64,000 nt of DNA from the NCBI RefSeq assembly GCF_000238315.3, contig NZ_CP011924.1:2547501-2611500 (forward strand). The letters run 5' to 3'. This DNA is from Pseudoalteromonas piscicida (GTDB lineage: Bacteria; Pseudomonadota; Gammaproteobacteria; Enterobacterales; Alteromonadaceae). Positions 53,962-58,479 of this stretch are shown here, piece after piece. Within the stretch, counting starts at the first letter, position 1. Each line of letters begins with the position of its first letter. The notes under the pieces are model-generated. The model searched no databases, was not told where the DNA came from, and worked only from the letters and a program-made list of their open reading frames with translations. The position numbers and the translations under genes were made by a program.

Positions 53962-53995
53962 GTTTCACCTCAGTGATAAACCGTTTCGTGTATAT

Positions 53996-54022
53996 TTAGC
54001 ACTCTAACATCTAGAGTGCTAA
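53996..54022. promoter_or_regulatory. Perfect CIRCE element (HrcA operator) at the rpoH promoter
   Basis: TTAGCACTC-N9-GAGTGCTAA matches the CIRCE consensus at all 18 arm positions with the canonical 9-nt spacer. It spans the predicted rpoH transcription start, the position where HrcA represses groESL and dnaK in other bacteria. In the mRNA it would also form a 9-bp hairpin in the leader. Confidence 0.88.
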
Positions 54023-54026
54023 ATGC

Positions 54027-54055
54027 AATCTACTTTATCTGATTTTTAAAATCAA
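54027..54055 (-). promoter_or_regulatory. Predicted sigma-70 promoter of rpoH
   Basis: On the minus strand the -35 TTGATT (54050-54055) and -10 TAGATT (54027-54032) are 17 bp apart. The start would fall near 54020, within the CIRCE element. Confidence 0.6.
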
Positions 54056-54154: not shown

Positions 54155-54194
54155 CAGTGCTAAATTTAATTAGTTCTGATTGTTTGAGTGCTAA
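54155..54194. promoter_or_regulatory. Two CIRCE half-sites upstream of the rpoH promoter
   Basis: CAGTGCTAA (54155-54163) and GAGTGCTAA (54186-54194) repeat the right arm of CIRCE. The second has a degenerate left arm, TTAGTTCTG, 7 nt upstream. They may be chance or auxiliary HrcA sites. Confidence 0.4.
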
Positions 54195-54212
54195 AATCTG
54201 ATAGTAATTGGC

Positions 54213-54241
54213 AATCGACTGCTACACTTTAGCAGTCGATT
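54213..54241 (-). terminator. Hairpin downstream of ftsX
   Basis: An 11-bp perfect stem (AATCGACTGCT/AGCAGTCGATT) with a 7-nt loop follows ftsX. It lacks a good T-run on the minus strand, so it may be a weak terminator or an mRNA-end stabiliser. Confidence 0.5.
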
Positions 54242-54259
54242 GGTGTTTGTAGCGTTAAA

Positions 54260-56033: not shown

Positions 56034-58217
56034 TTATTCTTGACTGAACAATGCCTCGATAAAATCATCACTCTTAAAGGTGCGTAAGTCATCAATGCCT
56101 TCACCTACACCTATATATCGAATTGGCACCTTAAACTGATCCGCCACAGCAAAGATAACCCCACCTTTGGCTGTACCATCAAGCTTAGTTAACGTGATAC
56201 CAGTTAAGCCAACTGCTTGATTAAACAGTTTTACCTGACTAATCGCATTCTGACCAGTTCCGGCATCAATCGTCAACATCACTTCATGTGGCGCGTCTGG
56301 GTCTAACTTTTTCATTACTCGAGCAATCTTCTCAAGCTCTTGCATTAGGTTATCTTTATTTTGTAATCGACCCGCTGTATCCGCTATTAATACATCGATA
56401 TTTCTCGCTTTAGCGGCTTGGAAGGCATCAAATACCACCGACGCAGAATCAGCACCTGTGTGCTGGGCAACAACAGGGATACTATTTCTTTCACCCCATA
56501 CCTGCAACTGCTCTACCGCAGCCGCGCGGAAAGTATCGCCAGCCGCCAACATGACGGATTTACCTTCGCTTTGAAACTGTTTGGCAAGCTTACCGATTGT
56601 CGTCGTTTTACCAACGCCATTTACGCCGACCATTAAGATAACGAAAGGTTTCTTGTCGGCAGGGATCTCAAGCGGTTGCTCTGCCGTTTTTAAGATCTCT
56701 GACATTTCTTTTTTCATTAGGTCATATAAAGCTTCACCGTCTTTTAACTGCTTTCTATCAGCAGCATCAGTCAGGTTATCTATCAGCTTCATTGTGGTTT
56801 CAACACCAATATCAGCCGTTAGCAATTGCGTTTCTAGATCTTCGAACAGCTCATCATCGATTTTTTTGCCTTTGAATACCGAAGCAAAGCCTGAGCCGAT
56901 ATTGGCCTTGGTTTTCAACAAGCCTTTTTTAAGGCGGGAGAAGAAACCTTCTTTTTTCGGCTTTTCTTGTTCTTGAGCTAATTGAGCCTGACGTTCTGCT
57001 TCTTCACGTTCAGCTTGTTCTTTAGCTAACTGTGCCTGACGTTCGGCTTCTTCACGCTCAGCTTGCTCTTTTGCTAATTGTGCCTGACGTTCCGCTTCTT
57101 CACGCTCGGCTTGTTCTTTAGCCAATTGTGCCTGGCGTTCTGCTTCCTCACGCTCAGCTTGTTCTTTCGCAAGTTGTGCCTGACGTTCTGCTTCCTCACG
57201 CTCAGCTTGTTCTTTAGCCAATTGTGCCTGACGTTCTGCTTTCTCACGCTCAGCTTGTTCTTTCGCAAGTTGTGCTTGACGTTCCGCTTCTTCACGCTCA
57301 GCTTGTTCTTTCGCTAATTGCGCCTGACGTTCTGCTTCCTCACGCTCAGCTTGCTCTTTTGCTAATTGTGCCTGACGTTCTGCTTCTTCACGCTCGGCTT
57401 TCTCTTTTGCTAATTGTGCCTGACGTTCTGCTTCCTCACGCTCAGCTTGTTCTTTCGCTAATTGCGCCTGACGTTCTGCTTCTTCACGCTCGACTTGCTC
57501 TTTTGCTAATTGTGCCTGACGTTCTGCTTCCTCACGCTCAGCTTGCTCTTTTGCTAATTGTGCCTGACGTTCCGCTTCTTCACGCTCGGCTTGCTCTTTT
57601 GATAACTGTGCCTGGCGTTCTGCTTCTTCATGCTCAGCTTGTTCTTTAGCTAACTGTGCCTGACGTTCGGCTTCTTCACGCTCAGCTTGTTCTTTCGCTA
57701 ATTGCGCCTGACGTTCTGCTTCTTCACGCTCGACTTGCTCTTTTGCTAATTGAGCCTGACGTTCCGCTTCTTCACGCTCGGCTTGTTCTTTCGCTAATTG
57801 TGCCTGACGTTCTGCCTCTTCACGCTCGGCTTGTTCTTGAGCTAATTTTGCTTGACGTTCTGCTTCCTCACGCTCAGCTTGTTCTTTCGCTAATTGTGCC
57901 TGACGTTCTGCCTCTTCACGCTCGGCTTGTTCTTGAGCTAATTTTGCTTGACGTTCTGCTTCCTCACGCTCAGCTTGTTCTTTCGCTAATTGCGCCTGAC
58001 GTTCTGCTTCCTCACGCTCAGCTTGCTCTTTTGCTAATTGAGCCTGACGTTCTGCCTCTTCACGCTCAGCTTGCTCTTTCGCTAACTGTTCTTGGCGTGC
58101 CGCTTCCTCACGCTCAGCTTGTTCTTTTGCTAACTGTTCTTGGTGTTCAGCTTCTTGTTGCTCTTTATCGGATTTACCAAAGCCCAACCAAGATAAAAAT
58201 TTGTTTTTCTTTCCCAT
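56034..58217 (-). CDS. ftsY: Signal recognition particle receptor FtsY with an expanded repeat domain
   Basis: The protein has 727 residues from the ATG at 58217; a GTG two codons upstream is an alternative. The C-terminal NG GTPase domain (about 420-727) is normal: DDELFEDLETQLLTADIGVETT, GVNGVGKTTTIGKLAKQF, DTFRAAAVEQLQVW, DTAGRLQNKDNL and TKLDGTAKGG. The N-terminal acidic A domain is replaced by 24 full tandem copies plus one partial copy of a 16-residue charged repeat. FtsY docks SRP-ribosome complexes at the SecYEG translocon; the A domain binds membrane and SecY. The gene is about 230 residues longer than E. coli FtsY (497). Confidence 0.96.
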   Translation of the reverse strand: MGKKNKFLSWLGFGKSDKEQQEAEHQEQLAKEQAEREEAARQEQLAKEQAEREEAERQAQLAKEQAEREEAERQAQLAKEQAEREEAERQAKLAQEQAEREEAERQAQLAKEQAEREEAERQAKLAQEQAEREEAERQAQLAKEQAEREEAERQAQLAKEQVEREEAERQAQLAKEQAEREEAERQAQLAKEQAEHEEAERQAQLSKEQAEREEAERQAQLAKEQAEREEAERQAQLAKEQVEREEAERQAQLAKEQAEREEAERQAQLAKEKAEREEAERQAQLAKEQAEREEAERQAQLAKEQAEREEAERQAQLAKEQAEREKAERQAQLAKEQAEREEAERQAQLAKEQAEREEAERQAQLAKEQAEREEAERQAQLAKEQAEREEAERQAQLAKEQAEREEAERQAQLAQEQEKPKKEGFFSRLKKGLLKTKANIGSGFASVFKGKKIDDELFEDLETQLLTADIGVETTMKLIDNLTDAADRKQLKDGEALYDLMKKEMSEILKTAEQPLEIPADKKPFVILMVGVNGVGKTTTIGKLAKQFQSEGKSVMLAAGDTFRAAAVEQLQVWGERNSIPVVAQHTGADSASVVFDAFQAAKARNIDVLIADTAGRLQNKDNLMQELEKIARVMKKLDPDAPHEVMLTIDAGTGQNAISQVKLFNQAVGLTGITLTKLDGTAKGGVIFAVADQFKVPIRYIGVGEGIDDLRTFKSDDFIEALFSQE
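56967..58118 (-). repeat. 24 tandem 48-bp repeats inside ftsY
   Basis: 1152 bp encode 24 units of consensus AEREEAERQAQLAKEQ. Most units are identical; variants include VEREE, AEHEE, AEREK and QAKLAQEQ. Synonymous third-position changes show an older array that has since diverged a little at DNA level. A partial unit extends to about 58154. The alternation of E and R/K every four residues predicts a long single alpha-helix stabilised by salt bridges. Copy number should vary between strains. Confidence 0.95.
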
Positions 58218-58479
58218 ATTCACTTATGACCGTGTTAGATAAATTGCATAAACCCAAAGCAAAATGTTGATGATCTTGCTACCATACTCGAAAACGCCAA
58301 TCCGCATCAGCTTATTGCTTTTACTTGGATTGATATCACACTTAATTTTGGGCTCGAAAGGCAAGCCGAGGATGGCAACCTTAGTGCTTAGACAAAATTG
58401 CGTGCAAGTGTACCATGTTCCGTAAGGATGAAAAATCCTGACACCAAGAACCTTTAATAAAGAAGCAAATTACGTCGCT

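Follow-up and report, generated by a model that had tools for sequence, protein, structure and literature searches.

Exact CIRCE dyad upstream of rpoH in Pseudoalteromonas suggests HrcA control of the sigma-32 gene and a predicted heat-shock feedback loop

We examined a 64,000-nucleotide stretch of the Pseudoalteromonas piscicida genome (NCBI RefSeq assembly GCF_000238315.3, contig NZ_CP011924.1, positions 2,547,501 to 2,611,500; this whole stretch is referred to as the window), in which an exact controlling inverted repeat of chaperone expression (CIRCE), the operator of the repressor HrcA, lies shortly upstream of rpoH, which encodes the heat-shock sigma factor sigma-32. We propose, with a probability of roughly 85%, that throughout the genus this dyad functions at the rpoH promoter as an operator for HrcA and that HrcA would repress rpoH and sigma-32 would drive hrcA, thereby closing a negative feedback loop. 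The proposal builds on the operator itself, its conservation, the co-occurrence of hrcA, the lack of other close matches and the promoter motifs. A sequence-only reading of the window had already suggested a cross-wired circuit with CIRCE on rpoH, and this appears to be the best reading given the hrcA gene in the genome and the conserved dyad.

The dyad agreed with CIRCE in its 9-9-9 arrangement without a mismatch, as had been claimed from the letters, and was separated from the ATG of rpoH by 34 nt on its 5′ side (Table 1). When the window was shuffled 100 times, a mean of 0.02 CIRCE matches with up to 3 mismatches was obtained. Across the whole genome (5,488,179 bases in two contigs), the rpoH site was the sole match with 2 mismatches or fewer; at 3 mismatches, six more CIRCE-like sites were found and a backwards control pattern gave 2, and the open frames adjoining these six sites resembled no known heat-shock gene when judged by eye, without a family search. 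A predicted sigma-70-type promoter terminates 4 nt ahead of the dyad, so that the rpoH start site would fall within it, which agrees with the earlier suggestion that CIRCE covers the predicted start. The promoter is supported by partial conservation in the genus, where most columns of the −35 and −10 elements are 65–95% conserved. The element thus lies where CIRCE is usually found, near the point at which transcription of a heat-shock gene starts, although the start site here is a predicted one.

We then surveyed 60 genomes of the genus, searching for CIRCE with up to 2 mismatches. The sequence-only reading had named the absence of hrcA from this genome and its relatives, together with a lack of conservation of the dyad, as grounds for abandoning the idea; HrcA was found in this genome and in all 60 genomes of the genus, and every one of the 59 genomes with a located rpoH carried CIRCE approximately 32–36 nt before that gene. 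CIRCE was likewise detected in 59 of the 60 genomes, and the site at rpoH was the only one in 55 of them. It was exact in 57 of the 59 cases, with one mismatch in the other two (G017 and G029). Among 20 non-redundant rows of the genus alignment, the CIRCE arms were 99.7% identical, against 66% for the loop, 65% for the leader, 62% for the promoter region and 51% for the far upstream sequence.

HrcA could bind this site and rpoH transcription still be a minor determinant, with the heat response set mainly by how much sigma-32 is translated and how stable it is, as in Escherichia coli, where the activity and stability of the factor depend on GroELS and DnaK according to passages of PMC6032397. 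That the operator is conserved almost perfectly throughout the genus points to an effect under selection but says nothing of its size; we therefore regard this as a serious possibility, if short of an even chance, and one that is compatible with the proposed HrcA operator.

The co-occurrence of the operator with its repressor was evaluated in 138 genomes of the GTDB family, with CIRCE searched at 1 mismatch or fewer and rpoH recognised by its first residues. HrcA was above the cutoff in 23 genomes, including five from Pseudoalteromonas itself, and one more match fell below the cutoff. CIRCE was found in 25 genomes, in 24 of which it preceded rpoH. The CIRCE–rpoH arrangement was present in 23/23 genomes with HrcA versus 1/115 of the others (Fisher test, 2.6e-25, with no correction for phylogeny). 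The association was also visible within a single genus (g50), in which one genome (G171) had both HrcA and CIRCE–rpoH and two (G108 and G143) had neither. A second, tandem CIRCE at rpoH was observed in two family genomes, with one mismatch in G171 and two in G093. In a further genome (G181; L142, position 1501), an exact CIRCE was found although HrcA gave no match, and within 120 nt of the site no open frame of at least 60 residues starts.

The hrcA gene of P. piscicida encodes the genome's one PF01628 protein (41.1 bits against a cutoff of 22.2) and is flanked by nadK, which runs on the opposite strand, and by grpE, which shares its strand, both neighbours having been named by eye. The closest relatives of the protein with a genus name were from Pseudoalteromonas. 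The DNA-binding part of the protein matched Thermotoga HrcA (1stz), and a profile built from 60 relatives matched 1stz over nearly the full length (E 7.5e-50). Matches to nadK, hrcA and grpE stood side by side in 34/34 genus loci, 18/18 loci from the rest of the family and 26/30 loci from the class, where the exceptions (L293, L294, L298 and L300) missed nadK, grpE or both and the nadK match was weak in one locus (L301). Together, this synteny and the near full-length profile match support the assignment of the protein as a divergent HrcA. Identity to P. piscicida in the 18 other family loci was 55–71% for nadK and 54–72% for grpE but 21–29% for hrcA (in one of the 18, the hrcA match was local only, with 45% over 85 aa), so that hrcA has diverged far more rapidly than the genes beside it. 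Judged by gene order, a horizontal acquisition of hrcA was discounted, as the nadK–hrcA–grpE order is common to the family and most class loci.

It had also been suggested that CIRCE be looked for before groESL, where it is classically expected, and here the expectation failed. We searched for groES in 40 genomes and examined 30 loci, 29 of them from genomes with HrcA; the closest CIRCE match had 6–8 mismatches in all 30. The same range of 6–8 mismatches was obtained for the closest match in 52 hrcA loci of the genus and family, in contrast to the hrcA loci of the class, among which 22/30 had CIRCE within 3 mismatches. When 30 class loci were fetched for CIRCE and the following genes assigned by their first residues, 13 sites were before groES, 14 before rpoH and 2 before hrcA, with 1 unassigned. 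The hrcA and groESL operators that are common elsewhere in the class are thus missing here, and the rpoH operator remains. A second operator before hrcA, groES or elsewhere was sought with up to 3 mismatches, and none was found at a heat-shock gene. A canonical multi-target regulon, in which the groESL and dnaK operators are merely too degenerate for our search, might still be imagined, as dnaK was not located and was covered solely by the 3-mismatch whole-genome scan; given the mismatch counts at groES and hrcA, and since an HrcA that keeps the rpoH operator strictly conserved would be expected to keep its other operators recognisable, we consider such a regulon unlikely.

Control at the RNA level, which the sequence-only reading had offered as an alternative, fared less well. 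Read as RNA, the dyad gives a hairpin of 11 bp at the start of the rpoH leader. This hairpin folds well in each of three sequences examined (z from −2.4 to −3.6) and could stabilise the message or sense temperature, leaving HrcA uninvolved, and E. coli rpoH has an RNA thermosensor. However, we rank the hairpin as a selected feature lower, and think it quite improbable, because no compensated double change was seen among the genus sites (59, allowing up to 2 mismatches) and a pair is broken in both sites that have one mismatch. In addition, the presence of CIRCE tracks hrcA, the hairpin leaves the ribosome-binding site uncovered and the predicted start site is within the dyad.

To close the proposed loop, sigma-32 would have to act on hrcA. 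Using the generally known sigma-32 promoter consensus for motif scoring, we found 15 occurrences of the pattern CTTGA-N14..16-CCCATNT in the genome versus 1 for a control. The genes that follow it, identified by their first residues, include htpG, hrcA and hslV, and it also precedes a gene for an FxsA protein (PF04186) shortly ahead of groES; at the other eleven sites, no heat-shock gene was evident by eye. For hrcA, the motif was scored from the aligned gene start with mismatches counted out of 13, and a sigma-32-like motif with 2 mismatches or fewer was present in 30/34 genus loci versus 2/170 shuffles. Sigma-32-like promoters thus appear clear at hrcA in the genus and weaker at groES.

Several results weigh against the proposed loop. 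The rpoH promoter is weak, with 8 of 12 consensus bases, and was absent from the list produced by a consensus scan. Among the genus genomes, four (G024, G039, G044 and G052) had one additional two-mismatch CIRCE site each, the control pattern gave one match (in G030), and one genome with HrcA (G016) gave no match to rpoH or to CIRCE; in the family, a 95% complete genome (G168) carried CIRCE–rpoH without an HrcA match. The sigma-32-like motif (2/13 mismatches or fewer) was found in just 6/18 non-genus family hrcA loci, compared with 1/90 shuffles, and the motifs near groES had 2–4 mismatches, with the groES start misplaced in 2/30 loci. The unlocated dnaK also counts here, and sites weaker than the mismatch limits used could still be bound. 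As for the repressor, HrcA scored 117.1 bits on TIGR00331, which is under the equivalog cutoff of 197.2. Taking as conserved those positions kept in at least 85% of family and class proteins (29/30 genus, 18/18 family and 29/30 class loci were used), the genus majority keeps 25/31 in the first 85 residues, the DNA-binding part, but just 13/27 in the remaining C-terminal part. The DNA-binding part is thus conserved and the C-terminal part strongly diverged, leaving the signal that is sensed uncertain.

In the circuit that we propose, in which binding, repression and signal are inferred, HrcA would occupy the start site in the unstressed cell and keep rpoH transcription low. As unfolded protein builds up, HrcA would be released and rpoH transcribed, sigma-32 would then turn on the chaperone genes and the hrcA–grpE operon, and newly made HrcA would switch rpoH off again. 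The signal may be free GroEL as in textbook HrcA, although this is uncertain here. According to passages of PMC6032397, GroE raises HrcA binding in Bacillus subtilis and Helicobacter, and in the titration model, unfolded protein draws GroE away so that HrcA binding is lost. A more speculative version, which we hold to be possible but rather doubtful, is that Pseudoalteromonas HrcA is a dedicated one-operator brake on sigma-32 whose DNA-reading part was kept and whose sensing half was remodelled, so that it may now read temperature itself or another signal in place of GroEL, in a two-gene loop setting the whole heat-shock regulon.

We next considered how far the arrangement extends in 276 genomes of the GTDB class Gammaproteobacteria, which takes in the betaproteobacteria. 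HrcA was found in 205 of these and CIRCE (1 mismatch or fewer) in 197. The sequence-only reading had noted that enteric bacteria lack HrcA; this holds for the E. coli control genome, which had no HrcA match, but the repressor is not exotic in the class. CIRCE on rpoH is not unique either: an exact CIRCE 20–50 nt ahead of the rpoH start was present in at least 59 of the 276 genomes, a lower bound given the strict pattern. A scan of named contigs for CIRCE–rpoH gave at least 120 stretches, and among the matches listed were Alcanivorax, Nitrosomonas, Dyella, Thioalkalivibrio, Rheinheimera, Alishewanella, Aromatoleum and Roseateles, as well as several Pseudoalteromonas and one Desulfuromonadaceae bacterium. 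A contig labelled as a Klebsiella pneumoniae metagenome-assembled genome (L244) also holds CIRCE–rpoH and is possibly a mislabelled bin.

In these stretches, many of them beta- or gammaproteobacterial, the motif GGAACTT (1 mismatch or fewer), which we take to resemble the −35 element of sigma-E promoters, was found within 45 nt in 71 of 119 usable rows (L158–L277), whereas 100 shuffles averaged 5.9 and never exceeded 13. Of the matches, 66 were located 7–11 nt before CIRCE. A sigma-E-like −10 element would then fall in the left arm of CIRCE. The third base after CIRCE was T in 142/150 rows, suggesting a possible extended −10 (TGCTAANAT). In the genus, GGAACTT was found in 7/37 rows (1.8 in shuffles), with none at the 7–11 nt place, and in the rest of the family in 5/19 rows, with one at that place. 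Joint regulation of rpoH from one site, by sigma-E together with HrcA, may thus date far back in the class.

Textbooks usually present HrcA and sigma-32 as heat-shock controls that replace each other or run in parallel. The present prediction stacks them, HrcA acting above sigma-32. CIRCE on rpoH itself was already known, having been predicted upstream of rpoH in Geobacter sulfurreducens in 2004 (PMC545781, Table 8). According to the same part of that source, Geobacter resembles the present case in having hrcA and an exact CIRCE consensus shortly 5′ of rpoH, but its groESL and hrcA-grpE-dnaK-dnaJ also carry CIRCE, whereas rpoH is the only close match here. It was the only CIRCE–rpoH prediction found in our search of the literature, which covered such sources in part, and earlier priority for beta- and gammaproteobacterial cases is possible. 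The operator sequence, its position near the start site and the repressor family are shared with Bacillus subtilis and other HrcA/CIRCE regulons (in part from PMC6032397), but the target here is a sigma factor gene rather than chaperonin and dnaK operons, and P. piscicida also has sigma-32. In Agrobacterium, both regulators likewise occur in one cell, where PMC11764788 describes RpoH and HrcA as acting on groE in parallel; the prediction here is of action in series, with HrcA on rpoH. The E. coli circuit shares a sigma-32 regulon with chaperone negative feedback (PMC6032397, in the passages cited above) but is without HrcA, and a transcriptional loop would be added here. What seems new is that rpoH is apparently all that remains of the regulon, which inverts the usual arrangement centred on groESL: the CIRCE–rpoH layout is widespread in beta- and gammaproteobacteria, and in one marine lineage only a single close operator is left. 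With a single operator, a single repressor gene and a single output, the circuit should be easily tested.

Table 1. Coordinates of the rpoH and hrcA features in P. piscicida (window positions unless prefixed by C1)
Feature	Position	Strand	Evidence or remark
CIRCE operator TTAGCACTC-N9-GAGTGCTAA	53996..54022	-	exact 9-9-9 dyad, no mismatch
rpoH, heat-shock sigma factor sigma-32, 285 aa	53104..53961	-	TIGR02392, 420 bits vs cutoff 323
Predicted rpoH sigma-70-type promoter TTGATT-N17-TAGATT	54027..54055	-	sequence and partial genus conservation
rpoH ribosome-binding site GAGGTG	53966..53971	-	by eye, from sequence and genus leaders
Extra CIRCE half-site TTAGCACT	54156..54163	-	possible auxiliary site; weak evidence
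Second extra CIRCE half-site TTAGCACT	54187..54194	-	weak evidence
hrcA	C1:615309-616244	same strand as grpE	the one PF01628 protein of the genome
Sigma-32 motif of hrcA-grpE, CTTGAAA-N13-CCCATAT	C1:615272-615298		perfect match

Extra CIRCE half-sites of the kind listed in Table 1 were present in 7 of 31 non-redundant genus regions upstream of rpoH. Their density there was 1.63 per kb (59 regions), whereas the remainder of those loci gave a background of 0.33 per kb and other loci one of 0.055 per kb. Between ftsX and rpoH, a terminator-like dyad of 13 pairs was also observed at 54212-54242 (scored on the plus strand). Elsewhere in the window, the N-terminal part of a gene named by eye as ftsY (56034-58223) was found to encode approximately 23 near-identical charged repeats of 16 residues (EREEAERQAQLAKEQA).
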